From Pseudisothecium myosuroides (Eukaryota > Streptophyta > Bryopsida > Hypnales > Lembophyllaceae): DNA of 64,000 bases. Both the position numbers and the translations under genes were made by a program. This document shows positions 4,035-37,620 of this stretch, one piece after another. Location of the stretch: positions 14,262,501-14,326,500 of the forward strand of contig OX637288.1 of the NCBI GenBank assembly GCA_951799445.1. The letters run 5' to 3'. The stretch's first letter is position 1; the number at the start of each line of letters is the position of its first letter. Below the pieces are notes generated by a model. The model saw only the letters and a list, made by a program, of their open reading frames with translations, was not told where the DNA came from and did no database searches.

Positions 4035-4230
4035 ATACCTTTCTCGGCCTTTTGGCTAAGATCAAGTGTAGTATCTGTTCTTATCAGTTTAATATCTGAT
4101 ACGGGGGTCATCGATCCCCATGATATTAATCTAATTTTTCTGGGGAGCGGGGCCACCCGGCAGCTTGCTGCCCGGCCCCGCGCGCGTCGCGTTGGTATCG
4201 CACTACCTCCTTGGCTGGCGCAGCCCTCCC
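4035..4230 (+). ncRNA. U2: U2 spliceosomal snRNA, copy 1
   Basis: Branch-point-recognising RNA of the major spliceosome. It starts ATACCTTTCTCGGCC. The branch-point recognition sequence GTAGTA is at 4068-4073, RNA positions 34-39, exactly as in known U2, which fixes the 5' end. An Sm-type U-rich site (AATTTTTC) is at 4133-4140, followed by GC-rich stem-loops. The 3' end is set from the usual plant length of about 196 nt. The sequence CCAGGAGGGGA with a nearby AAACCCTAAA just downstream is conserved at the second copy and may contain the 3'-end signal. Confidence 0.95.
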
Positions 4231-10114: not shown

Positions 10115-13100
10115 TCAAAAATCATTTAGCTTCGCAATGATGTCCAAAAAACTTGGCCTCCTTGAAGGATCAGCATGCCAACAATCTACAATAACGTTCT
10201 TCAATAACGGATGGAGGTCTGTAGGCAACTCTAGGCGATTTCCATCCAAAATGAAATCATAGTCCCGAGTAGAACGACCCTCAAAAGGAATGCATCCGGT
10301 AACAAGTTCAAAGCACACCATGCCAAAGCTGTACATGTCACCCGCCTTGGTGAATTCCATTGCAGCGCTTAAAACTCGGTTCTTCAATTGTTCAAGGATC
10401 TCAGGTGCCCTCCAAAAGCCAGTGCCCACAACCCCCACCGAACACTCAAAATCAGCTACAGTGGCCAAGATCTTCCCATTGATGGATGGTCGTTGCAAGC
10501 CAAGCACAAGGACATTGGAAGCTTTCAAGTCTCTATGTAAGATGGGTGTCTCTGCGGAGTGCAACAAGTGCATGTCTCTAGCTATGCAAAACATCAATCG
10601 CCTCACTTGCCACACACTAAAAGGAGGGCCTTGATTGTTTCCTTCTACCATTCGAAGATCAATCAACTTTCGCACATCTCCCCATTGCCTTTCCATCAAA
10701 ATTGCAAATCGATCCAAAAACCTACTATCTTTCAATAGCATTCCACCTTGTATCAATGAAAATAATCTCAAACCAGAAACCAAGACAAATCTAAATTCAT
10801 TCAACATTCCTAGAGGCCATTGCTTTTCGAGATCTACCAACTGAAAACTTGGATCAAATATCTTCGCCACGTAATCATCACCAACTTCATAGATCTCTGC
10901 TTGACCTCCTTCACCGATTTTCTTACCAATTACAATATCATCCCTTTCCATAAAGAACCCATAATGTCTTGACAAATCATATTGTTGCTTGAGCGCCAAA
11001 AAGTATGTGTGGTTTAGCTCTCCAAAATTCTCCGCGGTAGGAGTCCAATCCACTTCACTCCAATGAACTTTTGAATACTCAATCTCAAACTCCACATCAC
11101 TCGTGAAGTTACTTCTATTCTCAATCATGCTTTGAGTGCGAGCAAAATAGTAACAAGAAGTAGTTGATGGAGAAAAACTTGGCTTTGCAGAGGAAACACC
11201 AAATCTAGCATCTGAAAACAATAATTAAAACCATGAGCTATTTGACAGACTCCCCAAACCTTATCTCTTATTATTGTGAATTGTATTCACATTTGTCAAA
11301 TTTCACTCATACAGATTACAGACTCAACCAATCTTGTTATGTTTTCCAATTGATCAAGGTTAAATCCCCTACAAAAGTATACAACTATCCAAAACAAGTC
11401 CAATTGTGAAAACAATAAATTCATAAAACATCCTATCTACCTCATCACCTTCTACCTTCTCAAAGTAAATTCTAGATTCAAAGTAATTCTTCCTTGGGAT
11501 TCTACATTGTCATTTTGGTGTTCATGTATAGACTATTTGCTTGACAACTAAACTTTAAGAACCAAAACCCACCTCTATAAGTTTAATAACAACATTCATA
11601 AGGAAACCGACCAACAAACCCAAACACTCACCACCATCAAGTGTTGACCCCAAATGCTCTTCCTCAATTTCATGCGTTAGAGAGCAAAGATGCGGATGAT
11701 GAGGGTTCGATGCACAAAACCTAAAGAACATGGGCAATCAATATTTGAAACCTCATGATTTACAAACTCTATAAGAGCTAACGCTTTGACATATTCTCAC
11801 TCTTATCACAAATTGTTAACAACCAATACAGTTAACAAATTTGGTTGAAACAACAGTCAACTCTACATACCAATCTGATTGAAGACCTATCAACTAAGAA
11901 AAAGTTGTTGAATACTAGGAATAAAGAAACCACTTTAACTTAATAAAAAGTTGTTAATCACAAGGAATAATGGAGCCACTACAAGGCTGATGCAACCTCC
12001 ATCACTTAACTACAGAAGTTCATCAGATTAAAAAAACGTACCCCGATTCTCTCCATGAAGTCGGATCCCCACAGTCGCAGAACCCACCCTTTCTACTAAA
12101 GGTCCACCCTACGCACATCCCAACATCAAACTTCCAATTACAAAGTTCCTACTTTAAGAAGTTGTTAAATCACATCATAATATCATAATCAGGATCTTCT
12201 CAAGTAGTCGGAAAAAACAAACCATGAACGAATTAATCCAAAAAAAAAATCATGAGGAACTCCAAAAACCGAAAGAAAATGCTTAATATATCGCAGTTCT
12301 AGAATCAATTGTCTTATTCATCTCCACAAAAGATACACTAAATACAAGGAATCAAAAGATTACCCATACAGTCCATAACGTGGAAAAACAGGTAATTACC
12401 AAAATCGTGCCGCTCATGGTTGCCGTGATTGAAACAACTCCGACATATTGCACTGCGTCACAATATGGCATACAACAACAAAGGACCACCATGTCAAAAA
12501 ACAAAAGCCATAATTCAAAAGAGCAGCAGCATTTCATGCATGACATAATGGACGTATCATTATTGGTTGCCAAGCCATCCCCCACAATAGTTACTCGAGA
12601 AATGCAAATGTTGAATTCATGTCCGTTCTTTGGCCGCACTGAAAACTAGAAACAGTTCCAAATTTTACCACCACCGACGGTACTTAAGTGGCCTGCTTCA
12701 CCATCCGTGCAATCACACCTTGAATGATCGGAGGAAGAAGGGTTGTTATACGATACATCAACTAAATGGATTCCTCTTGACGGAGACCACAGATTCCGGC
12801 TCTTCAGTGTGAGGGAGAACATTGAAGACGCTTTATACAGAACGTCTTTTAAAGGGTTCTCCCAGCAACCATCCATTGAATCCAACAACGGAAGACTTTT
12901 GCACTCATGGATCTACAAAATCATCGCAGGTCGCTAACTCTTGACTCAGAAATGTGACCATTTGAGGTAAGTCCCGGACGATATCAGTTTCTGTCTGTAA
13001 GATTTGTATGGTCATTTCTGTGAACCTTGCTTGCACCTATTTACTGCGAAGAGAGGAACTGCAGAGAAAAAGGCAAGCATATCAAATTGACGTACCTCGA

Positions 13101-13278
13101 AGGGTGCAGTCCACAAGTGTAGCGTAGCATCTGTAAAATATGAACCCCCCCGCCATACGACCTTGCACTGCGATTCTCCTCGATTCCGATACAAAGATTT
13201 GAGCGAAATTTGAGGCTCCACCAACGAAGGAGACTCCACAAGAGGAATCTCGAGGTCCTCCTCGCAATCCGCTGCCAT
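10115..13278 (-). pseudogene. UBR zinc finger-protein kinase gene, copy 1, UBR exon frame-broken
   Basis: Same five-exon structure as copy 2: 13278-13096, 12452-12400, 12108-12042, 11720-11632 and 11211-10115, all GT-AG. Exons 2, 3 and 4 have lengths identical to copy 2 (53, 67 and 89 nt) and encode AICRSCFNHGNHERHDF, GGFCDCGDPTSW and a Cys/His-rich tail. Exon 1 is 183 nt, which leaves phase 0 where phase 2 is needed. Relative to copy 2 it has lost 1 bp near a run of seven G and gained 5 bp by repeating GCTAC. Read through, it meets a stop 12 codons into exon 2. The 364-codon kinase exon is still open, with HRDLKASN, DFE in place of DFG, and APE. Either the break is recent, or the kinase part is used alone, for example from an in-frame ATG at 11128, or the base calls in exon 1 are wrong. 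Confidence 0.75.
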
Positions 13279-19293: not shown

Positions 19294-19937
19294 TTGCAAA
19301 AAAGTGAGTTGCTCCATCTTAGGTATTACAACTCTTATTTTGTTTTTCTTAGAATTTGTATAAGTTGATTGTTCAAAACAATGAATTTTATTTCTCTTGG
19401 ATATCATGGCTTTTGCTTTGGTTCTCTTAGGTTTTGTATAAATTGATTGTTCAAAAAAATGAGTTGATTATTCTTGGATATCTTAGTTCTTTAGTTTGGT
19501 TCCCTTAGGGTTAGTGGAAGTTGATTGTTTAAAACAATGAGTTCATTTGTCTTGGGTATCATAACTCTTATTTTAGGTCTCTTAGGGTTTGTGTAAGTTG
19601 ATTGTTCAAAACAATAGATTGATTAGTCTTGAGTATCACAACTCTTACTTTGGTTCTCTTAGGGTTTTTATAAGTTCATTATCCAAAAAAGTGAATTGAT
19701 ATGTCTTGTGTATCATAAGTCTTGCTTTAGTTCTATTAGGGTTTGTTTAAGTTTATTATACAAAAAGGTGAGTTGATTTGTCTTGGACTTCATAGCTTTT
19801 GCTTTTATTCACATAAGTTTTATGTATATGTTGTTTATTTCAATCCCAAAAGAATAGAATTCAATGTTCTTTGCATTTTTGATCCATTTGCACTTTGTCT
19901 AACTTGGATTTTGTTTGTGTGTAAAAAATCACCTTAA

Positions 19938-23592: not shown

Positions 23593-26500
23593 TCAAAACT
23601 CATTAAGCTTTGCAATGATGTCCAAAAAACTTGGCCTCCTTGAAGGATCAGCATGCCAACAATCTACAACAATGCTCTTCAACAATGGATGGAGGTCTGT
23701 AGGCAACTTTGGGCGATTTCCAGCCAAAATGAAATCATAGTCCCCACTAGAATGGCCCTCAAAAGGAATGCAACCGGTAACAAGCTCGTAGCACACCATG
23801 CCAAAGCTGTAAACGTCACCCGCCTTGGTGAATTCCATCACAGAGCTCCAAACTCGGTTCTTCAATTGTTCAAGGATCTCAGGTGCCCTCCAAAAGCCGG
23901 TGCCCACAACCCCCACTGAACACTCAAAATCAGCTACAGTGGCCAAGATCTTCCCATTGATGGATGGTCGTTGCAAGCCAAGCACAAGAACATTGGAGGC
24001 TTTCAAGTCTCTATGCAAGATGGGTGGCTCTGCAGAGTGCAACAAGTGCACGTCTCTAGCTATGCAAAACATCAGTCGCCTCACTTGCCACACACTAAAA
24101 GGAGGGCCTTGATTGTTTCCTTCTACCATTCGAAGGTCAATCAACTTTCGCAAATCTCCCCATTGCCTTTCCATCAAAATTGCAAATCGATCCAAAAACC
24201 TACTATCTTTCAATAACATCCCACCTTGTATCAATGAAAAATGTCTATCAACACGGAAAAATCCAAAGTCACTAAGCATTCCAAGAGGCCATTGATTTTC
24301 AAGATCTTCCAATAGAAGACTTGGATGGAATATCTTCACCACAAAATCCTCGCCAACTTCATAGATCTCTGCTTGAGCTCCTTCACCAATTTTCTTACCG
24401 ACTACAATATCATCCCTTTCCGTAAAGAAGTCTCCACCTTGCCAACATGCACAATACTTTTGCTTCAACACCAAAAAAGTTGCACAATTTTGCTCTCCAA
24501 AATTCCTTGTGGTAGGAGTCAAATCCATTTCACTCCACTGAACTTTTGAGTACTCAATCTCAAACTCCACATCACTTGTGAACTTACTTCTATTCTCAAT
24601 CATGCTTTGAATGCGAGCAAAATAGTAACAAGAAGTAGTTGATGGAGAAAAACTTGGCTTTGAAGAAGAAGCACCAAATCTAGCATCTGAAAACAATAAT
24701 TAAGAACCATGAGCTATTTGACGGACTTCCAAAACCTTCTCTCTCATGTTTTGACTAGTGTTTACATTTTCACTCATACTTTATCACAAACTCAAACCAA
24801 TCTCATCATATTTTCTAATTTTAAAATCAAGGTTAAGTCTCTTCCAAAAGTATACATCTATCCAAAATATGACCAATTGTAAAAAAATATAAATTCATGA
24901 AATATCATCCTATCTGTACCTTATCACCTTCTACCTTCTTGAGGTAAATTCTAGATTCAAGCAAATTCCTTGGGATACTAAATTGTTGTTTTGGTATTTA
25001 TGTGCAGGCTATTTGCCTAACAATTATACTTTGAGAACCTTAAACCACCTCTACAAGCTAGATAACAACACCTACAAGGAAGCTAACCAATAAATCCAAA
25101 CACTCACCACCATCAAGTGTTGACCCCAAATGCTCTTCCTCAAATTCATGTGTCAAACAGCAGAGACATGGATGAAGAGGGTTTGATACACAAAACCTAT
25201 ACAACATGAACTATCAATTTTTTAAACCTCATGGTTTACAAACTCAATAAGAGATAAAACTTTGAGATATTTTGGCTCTTATCACAAACTCTTAACAAGC
25301 AATAGAATGAAACAACTCTCAACTCTAAATACCAATATGATTGAACACCTATCAACTAACGAAAAGTTGTTAATACTAAGAATAAAGCAACCACCATAAC
25401 TTAATAAAAAGTTGTTCAGCACTACAAATAATGGAGCCAACACAAGGCTAATGCAAACAACCTCAACCTCCATCATTCAACTCCAAAAGTTCATCAGATC
25501 TATAAAAACATACCCGGATTCACTCCAAGAAGCCGGATCCCCACAGTCGCAAAACCCAGCATCTTTACACACGACCACGTCTACACACATCCCAACATCA
25601 AACTTCCAATTACAAAGTTCCTACTTTAAGAAGTTAAAATTACATCATACGATCATAATCACGATGCTGTGAAGTAGTCAAAAATAAAAACATAAACGAA
25701 TTAATAGTAAACAAAACAATCATACGAAACTCTAGAAACCAAAAGAGAATGCTCAATATATCGCAGTTCTATAATCAACTGTTTTATTCATCTCCACAAA
25801 AGATGCACTAAATTAATACAAGGAATCAAAAGATTACCCATACAGTCTATAACGTGGAGAAACAGGTAATTACCAAAATCGTGCCCCTCATGGTTGCCGA
25901 GCTTGAAACAACTGCGACATATTGCACTGCGTCACAATTTGGCATACAACAACAAAGGACCACCGTATCAAAATGAAGAAGCCATAATTCAAAAGAGCAG
26001 CAAGATTTCATGTACGACATAATGGAAGTATCATTATCTACCACAATAGTTACTCAACAAATGCAAATGTTGAATTCATGTCCGTTCTTTTGCAACACTG
26101 AAAACCTGACACAGTTCCAAACTTCAGCACCACGGTTCCTAAGTGGTCTACTTCACCATCTGTGCAATCACACGTTGAACGATCCGAAAAGGAAGAGTTG
26201 TTATACGAGACATCAACAAAATGGACTCCTCTTGACGGAGACAACAAATTTCGGCCCTTCAGTGCAAAGGGACAAATTGAAGATGTTAAGGTAAGCGCCT
26301 TGAGGAACTTAACTGCTGAGTACCAAAGCACATTTTGGTCGCAATTAGTCATGCAAAAGGACAACATATATATGAAACGTCAGTCAAAGGATTCTCCCAG
26401 CAACCAAGCTCATCCATTCGATCCAACAAAAGAAGACTTTTGCACTCGTGGATCTACGAAATTAGCGCAGGTCGCTAACTCTTGACTCAGGAATGTGACC

Positions 26501-26840
26501 ATGGCATTGAGGTATGTCCCAGTCGATTTTAGTTTCTGTCTGTACGATTTGTATGGTCATCTCTGTGAACCTTGCTTGCAACTATTCACTGCGAAGGGAG
26601 GAGCCGCAGAGAAAATGGCAAGCATATCAAATTGACGTACCTGAAAGGGTTCAATCCACAAGTGTAGCATCTGTAATAAAGGTGCCCCGCCTTCCATATG
26701 ACCTTGCACTGCGATTCACCTCGATTCCGATACGAATTCCGATACCATTCTTTGAGAGAAATTTGAGGCTCCACCCCACCCACCAACAAAGAGGACTCCT
26801 CAGGAGGAATCTCGAGGTCCTCCTCACAATCCACTGCCAT
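23593..26840 (-). CDS. UBR-box zinc finger fused to a protein kinase, copy 2 (intact)
   Basis: Five exons: 26840-26641, 25926-25874, 25580-25514, 25196-25108 and 24686-23593, all GT-AG with phases 2, 1, 2, 1 matching, giving 500 residues. Residues 40-110 form a UBR box (binder of destabilising N-termini in N-recognins): C45, YRC58, TC61G, AIC70RSC73F, GNH79EGH82D, then GFC95DC97GD99 and W103, GFC109. Both Asp residues of the CDCGD motif, which hold the N-terminal amine in known UBR boxes, are present. Residues 230-500 are a Ser/Thr kinase of TKL-like type: GEGAQAE at 237-243, K254, HRDLKASN from 361, DFE at 389-391 in place of DFG, GTGFWRAPE to 406, CW plus DPSRRPSF near the end. The start was chosen because ATGGC in GAG context is conserved in copy 1, whereas the upstream ATG there is GTG here. 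No RING or HECT domain is seen. Role unknown; phosphorylation coupled to N-degron binding is only a guess. Confidence 0.85.
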
Positions 26841-34034: not shown

Positions 34035-34230
34035 GGGAGGGCTGCGCCAGCCAAGGAGGTAGTGCGATACCAAGGCGACGCGCGCGGGGCCAGGCAGCAA
34101 GCTGCCGGATGGCCCCGCTCCCCAGAAAAATTAGATTAATATCATGGGGATCGATGACCCCCGTATCAGATATTAAACTGATAAGAACAGATACTACACT
34201 TGATCTTAGCCAAAAGGCCGAGAAAGGTAT
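34035..34230 (-). ncRNA. U2: U2 spliceosomal snRNA, copy 2
   Basis: Minus-strand copy with the same 5' end, GTAGTA branch-point box and Sm site as copy 1. The few differences include changes at the GGGGCC stem-loop that fall in its internal loop (ACCC opposite C becomes AUCC opposite U), leaving the flanking stems paired. Shared flanks extend about 300 bp upstream and 40 bp downstream, so the whole expression unit was duplicated. Confidence 0.95.
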
Positions 34231-35508: not shown

Positions 35509-37224
35509 CTACTGCACCTTCTTTATCTCCAACCGCCCTCGGAGATTCTCTGGCAATTTACTGGCGACAATTCCGTAGTAATGGTCGAAGGTTTCAAATG
35601 CCAGAGTGCACAGCTTGTCAAACTCATCCTCGTTCTGCTCGTACATGTATGGTGCAGTGAAAGCTGCAAACACGCTCATGAAGAGTAAACTCCGGAAGGA
35701 AAATCTCCCGAAAAACTTCAGGACACGCAGTACAACCATCACCTTGCAAAACAGAGCGCGGTCTCTTTGCACAACGATTCTCTCCAGAAGAAAGCAGCCA
35801 GAGTTCCAGAGTGATCGAACTTCATGGGCCACTTTGATTGCGGACTCATCAGATATCTCGAACAACGACGGGGGAATCTTGGGTAACGAAATTGAAAACA
35901 GGGGATCGGGCAAGAAGTTAAGGGTAAAGACAGCAATCAGCACCACACAGAGGTTGTAGCTCAATGCAGAAGCCAGAGTGGCCCCCGACTTGTAGAAGAA
36001 GTACAGTATGCTCAAAAGGCCAATGAAGAACGCAACGCTTCTCCTGCCGTCTTTCCACAAAAGCACATCCGCCACAGCACCACCACCGAGCGCCGTATTC
36101 ACCTTCGACGACAGTTTGATTTCTCGGTTCGCAATCTCGGGGTCCGGCGCATCGGCACGAAACTCAGGATACGCTGCGATCGTTCTCCGAATCCCTTCCT
36201 CTAAAGACACAATGGGCTTGTACCCTAAAAGCTCCTTGGCTCTGTTGCAGTTGAACGTTCTCGTGACAGTAACCAGCCTCAAACGCACAGGATTGAAATT
36301 GACTGCCGGCTTGACACCGATTGGGGCCAACATCTTCGCCACGCTATCATACGCTTCGGCAATTGTCAGCACAAGCTTCGCAGGAACGTTGAACTTTGGT
36401 TTAGGGTAACCAAGCCCAGTGATAATTCTCGTCAAGAAATCCCAAAACGGAATCGGCTCCTGGTTCGTAATAAAGAAAGCTTTCCCAGAAACCCCTCCAG
36501 CATCCCCAAACGTCAAAGCCTTCTCCGCACACAAATGCGCATGCGCGACATTTTCCACAAACGTCCAATCGAACATATTCTTCCCATCACCGAGAATAAA
36601 CTTCAGTTTCCCAGCTCTCGCCGACTTCGCAAACGCAGGGACAGTCAGTCTATCGCCGGGTCCAAAGATCCCACTCGGACGAATCGCACATGTCGCCAAG
36701 CTCCTCCCATTAGCACTCAAAACCAGCGCCTCCCCGTGCGCTTTCGCATCCGAGTAATAATCATTAAACTTATCACAGATCGGAGCCGACTCGTCCACAT
36801 TAACAATGGGGTGCACACCGTCGAACACAATGCTAGGAGAGGAAGTGTAAACCAGCTTCTGCACCCCACATTCCAGACAAGCCTCGATCACATTCCGCGT
36901 CCCCGTGACGGAGACGTCGAAATGCAATTTGAAGCTATTGATGGAAGTATCGGGAGCGGCCATATGAAACACCACCGCAACCCCTCGCAACGCCTCCATC
37001 ACCTGCTGCTTGTTGCGAATGTCACAGGAAACGTATTGCACTCGTTCCATTTCAACCCCCCGCCCAAGAACCCCCATCGTCTCCTCATCCGTCATCGCCA
37101 ACCGGGGCGCCAGATCCACGATACGGACCACATAGCGGCCATCCTCCAGCAATTTCTGCACCACCCACTTCGCCAAGAACCCTCGCCCGCCCGTCACCAC
37201 GCAAACCTCCGACGACGCCCCCAT
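35509..37224 (-). CDS. 3BETAHSD/D: 3beta-hydroxysteroid dehydrogenase / C4-decarboxylase with C-terminal reticulon domain
   Basis: 571 residues in one uninterrupted ORF. It oxidises the 3-hydroxyl and removes the C4 carboxyl of sterol intermediates during C4 demethylation, at the ER. The extended-SDR part starts with TGGRGFLA (11-18, NAD binding) and has the catalytic pair Y157-SDA-K161. The C-terminal part, from about residue 385, is a reticulon domain with hydrophobic hairpins (VAFFIGLLSILYFFY and LCVVLIAVFTLNFL). Plant 3BETAHSD/D1 and D2, also called RTN19 and RTN20, have this same fusion and similar length. The C-terminus KKVQ fits a KKXX ER-retrieval signal. GC-rich relative to its surroundings. 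The seed-plant genes I know have many introns, so the intron-less form is notable. Confidence 0.93.
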   Translation of the reverse strand: MGASSEVCVVTGGRGFLAKWVVQKLLEDGRYVVRIVDLAPRLAMTDEETMGVLGRGVEMERVQYVSCDIRNKQQVMEALRGVAVVFHMAAPDTSINSFKLHFDVSVTGTRNVIEACLECGVQKLVYTSSPSIVFDGVHPIVNVDESAPICDKFNDYYSDAKAHGEALVLSANGRSLATCAIRPSGIFGPGDRLTVPAFAKSARAGKLKFILGDGKNMFDWTFVENVAHAHLCAEKALTFGDAGGVSGKAFFITNQEPIPFWDFLTRIITGLGYPKPKFNVPAKLVLTIAEAYDSVAKMLAPIGVKPAVNFNPVRLRLVTVTRTFNCNRAKELLGYKPIVSLEEGIRRTIAAYPEFRADAPDPEIANREIKLSSKVNTALGGGAVADVLLWKDGRRSVAFFIGLLSILYFFYKSGATLASALSYNLCVVLIAVFTLNFLPDPLFSISLPKIPPSLFEISDESAIKVAHEVRSLWNSGCFLLERIVVQRDRALFCKVMVVLRVLKFFGRFSFRSLLFMSVFAAFTAPYMYEQNEDEFDKLCTLAFETFDHYYGIVASKLPENLRGRLEIKKVQ

Positions 37225-37620
37225 CGCCTGCGACCTCTACCAAAACCAACACCCAAAACGACTCCCGGTGCGAAATGCGAGCAGATTAGATTGCTGGGAA
37301 GCGGGACTCGGAAGCAATTGCGACGGAACGGCAAGCGCAGCAGCAGAATTGCGAGCAAGGAGGGACACAAATTGCGAAGGAGACTGGCCCGCTGCAATTT
37401 GTGTGCGGGGCCCGTTGCGCTTTGTGTTGGTACGGGGGTGGGTTTGGAAGCGTCCGGAGACAGAGGCCTGGCAGAGGGAAACGGATCGCCGTGGATTGCT
37501 CCGACGGCTCAGATCTCTCTCTGGGGAGCGAATGAGAGCGCCAACGCAGCCTTTGGCTGTTATGAGCCAGGGCCAACAGTTACTGTACCAGGGAGTTCAT
37601 TTGATTAGCAATGATTTTTC
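37225..37620 (-). promoter_or_regulatory. 5' UTR and promoter region of the 3beta-HSD/D gene
   Basis: A GC-rich island upstream of the ATG, dropping to AT-rich sequence beyond about 37600. No TATA box was singled out. ORFs on both strands here are shadows of its base composition. Confidence 0.4.

Follow-up and report, generated by a model that had tools for sequence, protein, structure and literature searches.

A moss gene that appears to join a UBR box to a protein kinase, present in three tandem copies

The genome of the moss Pseudisothecium myosuroides contains a gene, present in three tandem copies, whose predicted product combines an N-terminal UBR box with a C-terminal protein kinase domain. 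Two copies (A and C) are intact and the third (B) is broken in exon 1. UBR-type zinc fingers usually recognise the ends of proteins for destruction. Our preferred reading, which we consider on balance probable, is that this is a single gene encoding a protein kinase in which the UBR box serves as an N-terminal docking domain. The joined frame, the presence of both domains, the exon structure shared by the copies, and the position of A, B, and C as one clade of moss kinases are established at the level of the nucleotide sequence. The locus appears on these grounds to be a real and unusual gene, in which two known families are newly combined. The window, meaning the whole 64,000-nt stretch of DNA that was analyzed, corresponds to G000:C2:14262501-14326500, and the genome searched comprises 388 Mb in 222 contigs.

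Exon structure of the three copies

Copy A lies on the minus strand of the window (26840-23593) and consists of five in-phase exons of 200, 53, 67, 89, and 1094 nt, which together give 500 codons and a stop; all of its introns are GT-AG. Exon 1 (26641..26840) provides the start codon, residues 1-66, and the opening part of the UBR box (C45, C58, and C61), and exon 2 (25874..25926) carries C70, C73, H79, and H82. Exon 3 (25514..25580) encodes C95-D96-C97-G98-D99, and exon 4 (25108..25196) contributes C109 and a post-box segment that includes N112 and H115. The linker and the entire kinase domain are encoded by exon 5 (23593..24686), with the stop codon at its low end; no frame of at least 60 amino acids was found beyond this stop on the minus strand between 23091 and 23592. 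The five phase-matched exons proposed in a preliminary description of this DNA were thereby borne out, and the ten Cys and His residues that it had named, together with the two Asp of the CDCGD motif (D96 and D99), all lie where it had placed them.

Pfam searches of the 500-residue product identified both of the domains that the same description had proposed, all with significant scores. The zf-UBR family (PF02207) matched residues 44-110 (66.4 bits, E 2.3e-18; curated cut-off 25.2), PK_Tyr_Ser-Thr matched residues 313-497 (E 1.4e-19), and Pkinase matched residues 232-494 (E 2.2e-19). Only zf-UBR and kinase families were recovered at E values up to 0.1, with no RING, HECT, or other ubiquitin-transfer module among them, and no NB-ARC family was matched in Pfam. 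An NCBIfam scan returned only weak bacterial kinase matches, all under the cut-off, and neither a bacterial-type promoter scan of the upstream region nor a tRNA scan gave anything useful. When the N-terminal 137 residues were compared with solved structures, the top match was 7wuk, named only as an E3 ubiquitin-protein ligase (E 8.2e-15), followed by the UBR boxes of PRT6 (E 1.6e-14) and then by UBR1 and UBR2. The predicted fold of exon 5 (mean pLDDT 87.3) matches kinase structures that have been solved, among them those of MerTK and Roco4.

Copy B (window 13278-10115, minus strand) retains all five exons. Its exon 1 (13096..13278; 183 nt) is frameshifted relative to A and C by a 1-nt deletion and a 5-nt insertion, and has additional in-frame gaps relative to A. 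Exons 2 (12400..12452), 3 (12042..12108), and 4 (11632..11720) follow the frame of A, with the zinc ligands kept in exon 2 and CDCGD kept in exon 3, and exon 5 (10115..11211) is an open kinase exon that is 84% identical to that of A. These indels put the start codon in a different frame from exons 2-5, which deprives the copy of the opening half of the UBR box; the zinc knuckle of exon 1 is not in frame, and the ligands of exons 2-5 are preserved. The third copy, C, was found by genome search outside the window, approximately 34 kb from B (G000:C2 14238932-14235754). Its exons of 188, 53, 67, 89, and 1094 nt have the same phases as those of A and encode an intact product of 496 residues in which both domains are present (zf-UBR 59.7 bits, against the cut-off of 25.2). 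The agreement of phase and length that had been described for two paralogous loci thus fails for copy B within the window, where exon 1 is frameshifted, and holds for copy C outside it. With the DNA of the UBR segment as query, A, B, and C were the only places in the genome where most or all of the segment was recovered. Contig C1 gave two short matches that resemble decayed pieces from around exon 4, and these, together with a short stretch of kinase sequence at a distance of 1.5 Mb, look like remnants.

The join between UBR box and kinase

The splice signals are kept across the three copies, with 24/24 intron ends reading GT or AG. Between A and C, exons 1-4 differ by a single 12-nt indel that preserves the frame, compared with 20 indels in 1572 intron sites, 15 of which are frameshifting. 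A drift simulation of 40,000 runs, in which the UBR exons changed at the intron rate, returned probabilities of 0.019 for the lack of any frameshift, 0.117 for the lack of a stop, 0.096 for the survival of all splice ends, and 0.014 for all 10 ligands and 2 Asp remaining unchanged; the simulation takes A as the ancestor and the introns as neutral, so these results serve as a guide. All four outcomes coincided in 1 of the 40,000 runs. The frame, splice sites, and zinc ligands of A and C therefore persist better than intron-like drift predicts.

Start codons were compared among the 30 best-scoring loci of the kinase family, 27 of which are loci other than A, B, and C (25 full-length and 2 partial). 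In each of the 25 full-length relatives, a single open frame covers the kinase and supplies a Met ahead of the kinase homology. Copies A and B lack a Met at this position and would need splicing to the upstream exons to obtain a start. In copy C (L007/L035), the open kinase frame extends back into intron 4 and contains an in-frame Met there, which offers a possible alternative start for a kinase-only product. The other family loci examined, where no adjacent UBR exons were found, could support a reading of the locus as two neighboring genes, a short UBR-box gene made up of exons 1-4 and a separate kinase gene made up of exon 5. Against this, the frame remains open through exon 4, whose donor in A and C is in phase with the acceptor of exon 5, and A, B, and C all retain the splice ends. 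Given these matching phases and splice ends, and the lack of a separate kinase start in A and B, two separate genes are the least likely of the explanations considered and, in our estimate, highly improbable. The join of UBR box and kinase in one gene looks real from these exon and frame comparisons; the layout first proposed for this locus draws support from the sequence itself, from the intact copy C, and from the start-less kinase of A and B.

The kinase family and the origin of the fusion

A database search with the full-length product of copy A matched 696 proteins, and the best 120 were examined. Where organism names are given for these 120, they are Ceratodon purpureus or Physcomitrium patens. 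The closest of the matches listed is 57% identical to copy A over 42% of the query, and the other relatives among the best 120 of 696 are mostly 40-50% identical over approximately 70% of it. These moss kinases share with copy A a pre-kinase VEFEIExSKxHWSE element and an altered DFG motif, which reads D-[F/Y/W]-E (DFE, DYE, or DWE) in 120/120 of the best 120 of 696; the Glu is also present in A. The catalytic Lys is conserved in 119 of these 120 relatives and the HRD-type Asp, the Asn, and the metal-binding Asp in all 120. Copy A has all four residues, and in copy C the HRD motif is replaced by HKD. Since the Gly of DFG is Glu in all 120 listed relatives, kinase activity is not certain. Unlike copy A, no relative among the best 120 of 696 contains zf-UBR or a CxCGD motif. 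Fourteen of the 120 listed relatives are longer than 600 amino acids; seven of nine that were scanned have two kinase stretches, and no domain outside kinase-like families exceeded its cut-off in these nine, where small kinase-like families were presumed to be kin of the kinase. We know of no name for this D[FYW]E family. Titles and abstract openings from the literature on moss kinases, together with parts of PMC3352924, yielded no description of it. The locus also points to a large family of moss kinases in which DFE replaces DFG, and a search of the P. myosuroides genome itself with the kinase gave at least 89 match rows (86 of 989 candidates scored).

A tree of 66 sequences places A, B, and C in one clade (100/100), and their sister is a locus on contig C10 of the same genome (L008; 100/84), which has a long branch. 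UBR exons were looked for beside L008 and were not found. The sister relationship to this UBR-less locus makes it most likely that the UBR box joined the kinase once, after that split. The UBR exons would have come to stand before a kinase gene, which in A and B would then have lost its own start codon. In a search for a donor of these exons, the two PRT6-like boxes of the genome (L001 and L002, the latter confirmed against solved PRT6 boxes) each proved to lie in one open frame, in contrast to the four exons of copy A; the contig C1 matches resemble decayed pieces and not a donor. Two further loci (L003 and L004), UBR7-like by visual reading, have an intron that, likewise by reading, is at a different place. 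Searches with the UBR regions of A (4 matches) and C (11 matches) returned no protein with a kinase. The search for relatives depends on exact shared words and on similar protein length, and a more divergent UBR-kinase could therefore escape it.

Other moss kinases are known in fused form. The PNL class (kinase-NBS-LRR, resistance-type) contains a fused moss kinase, with exon shuffling proposed as its origin (PMC3352924). Copy A resembles this class in having a moss kinase fused to another domain, but has no NB-ARC domain behind the kinase. At two P. myosuroides loci (L045 and L046), kinase exons lie upstream of NB-ARC exons, as in the PNL class; these are 2 of the 126 scored NB-ARC matches in the genome, where at least 126 were scored. 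Their kinases are only 26-30% identical to that of copy A, and a link to the PNL resistance genes was not supported, the two examined pre-NB-ARC kinases being only distant relatives.

The pairing of these two domains has a precedent in the literature. Kaur and Subramanian (2015; PMC4506424) name protein kinase (PF00069) among the domains adjacent to the UBR box in some sequences. This is the same domain pair as in copy A, a likeness drawn from that one mention in the text, and the preliminary description, whose author knew of no described protein with this layout, went too far on this point. Literature on the UBR box and kinases, covered mainly through titles and abstract openings, yielded no paper on a plant UBR-box kinase, and a search of the main text of a plant review for words starting with kinase gave none (PMC11668491). 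Three UBR-box proteins are reported for Arabidopsis: PRT6, BIG, and AT4G23860 (PMC11371152). A UBR box carried by a plant kinase would demonstrate a use of this module outside ubiquitination.

Constraint on the UBR box and its possible ligands

The box of copy A shares with that of PRT6 the UBR-box profile, the CDCGD and NHxxHD motifs, and ten zinc ligands; 10/10 of the ligands up to C109 are present in both A and C. It differs from PRT6 in that no E3 module was detected in the same protein and in that a pocket Asp and the final zinc His are both replaced. In the alignment column taken here as that of the third acidic residue of the pocket (Asp142 in yeast UBR1), the residue is Asn in copy A (N64), His in B and C, and Asp both in PRT6 and in the PRT6-like boxes of the genome. 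In yeast UBR1 this third Asp lines the pocket (PMC11668491). Both Asp of the type-1 N-recognin CDCGD motif are kept, and D96 and D99 of copy A correspond to UBR2 Asp150, which holds the alpha-amino group, and Asp153, which holds the guanidino group (PMC10687169). The final His (His166 of UBR1/UBR2) completes the Zn2 site and is replaced by Cys in UBR4-7 (PMC10687169); the corresponding residue is Asn in A (N112), B, and C, and thus neither His nor the replacing Cys. A His located three residues past this column is kept in all three copies and might substitute as a zinc ligand.

The box is 46-52% identical to UBR3-type boxes and 45-46% identical to the two PRT6-like boxes of the genome, a comparison that is unbalanced because the UBR3-type sequences came from a search that used this box as query, and only one of them (P0130) bears the name, the rest being grouped by likeness. 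Like copy A, the UBR3-type boxes are missing the third pocket Asp (GIS[PQ]C); they differ from it in keeping the C..H zinc end and in having no kinase family. UBR3 has been reported as a non-binder of N-degrons (PMC11668491). In UBR4, the box recognizes Arg and aromatic residues at the N-terminus with no use of its second Asp (PMC10687169), and loss of one pocket Asp therefore does not preclude binding. If the protein were a strict N-recognin, with the box binding Arg, Lys, or His N-termini like PRT6 and the kinase phosphorylating the bound N-degron protein, then the PRT6 boxes among the best solved-structure matches, the match of D96 and D99 to the amino- and guanidino-binding Asp of UBR2, and the binding of N-terminal Arg by UBR4 would all be in keeping with it. 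This explanation is made quite improbable by the Asn or His at the third acidic position, by the Asn that replaces the final zinc His in every copy, and by the about equal closeness of the box to the reportedly non-binding UBR3 type. Binding of a free N-terminus by the box seems possible from its conserved residues; sensing of basic N-degrons is likewise possible but is not favored, and the link from N-degron sensing to phosphorylation put forward in the preliminary description stays a hypothesis.

The two domains evolve differently. Comparison of A with C gave a dN/dS of approximately 0.86 for the UBR part (bootstrap 0.49-1.70) and 0.38 for the kinase part (bootstrap 0.27-0.57). Differences in the UBR part are spread evenly over the three codon positions (22/25/20), which, together with this ratio, means that purifying selection is not seen on average. 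Positive selection on the box is not claimed: the YN00 estimates (dN 0.25, dS 0.19) disagree with those of NG86 (0.22 and 0.27), dS in the exons exceeds the distance measured in introns, and 1 lies within the bootstrap interval. The changes are not distributed at random over the box, as 0/12 ligand and Asp residues differ between A and C compared with 25/72 box residues (P 0.003), and all 43 nucleotide changes in the box fall outside 13 scaffold codons. Non-ligand box sites differ more than introns do (43/177 vs. 213/1572, P 0.0003). Constraint on the box is concentrated at the zinc scaffold, and the surface is either free to change or being changed.

The dN/dS of the box and its flat codon-position profile, set against the lower ratio of the kinase, would also be expected if the UBR exons were a passenger, carried along after the fusion formed while selection keeps the kinase and the box drifts and is lost copy by copy. 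The loss of the box by frameshift in copy B, where the kinase exon is still open, and the potential start inside intron 4 of copy C would agree with such a history. The joint persistence of ligands, frame, and splice sites in A and C exceeds what intron-like drift produces, and A and B depend on the upstream exons for a start codon; we regard a passenger box as unlikely, though the likeliest of the alternatives.

Under the preferred reading of the box as a docking domain, the UBR box would bind a partner, perhaps by way of a free N-terminus of a protein that D96 and D99 hold, and this binding would bring the attached kinase to its substrate or alter the activity of the kinase. Since the search recovered neither a RING or HECT domain nor any further E3 module, the proposed protein would have no ubiquitin step of its own. 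The altered side-chain pocket and the concentration of changes at non-ligand positions suggest a ligand other than the basic N-degrons of PRT6, and one that may still be changing. A more specific proposal, which we put forward tentatively and consider rather unlikely in its full form, is a UBR-box-directed kinase that reads protein N-termini or a mimic of them and phosphorylates instead of ubiquitinating, with a ligand that shifts quickly between tandem copies as the zinc scaffold is held. The two intact tandem copies, with their different pocket residues, would permit a direct test of UBR-box binding after loss of the third pocket Asp.

Several other features were observed in the window. Two U2 spliceosomal RNA genes lie in opposite orientation at 4035-4228 (plus strand) and 34037-34230 (minus strand), and both overlap a 97% inverted repeat of 230 nt. 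A repeat in six copies, with a spacing of 77-78 nt, occupies 19309-19800. One long frame without interruption, on the minus strand at 35509-37236, encodes 3-beta-hydroxysteroid dehydrogenase and reticulon domains.
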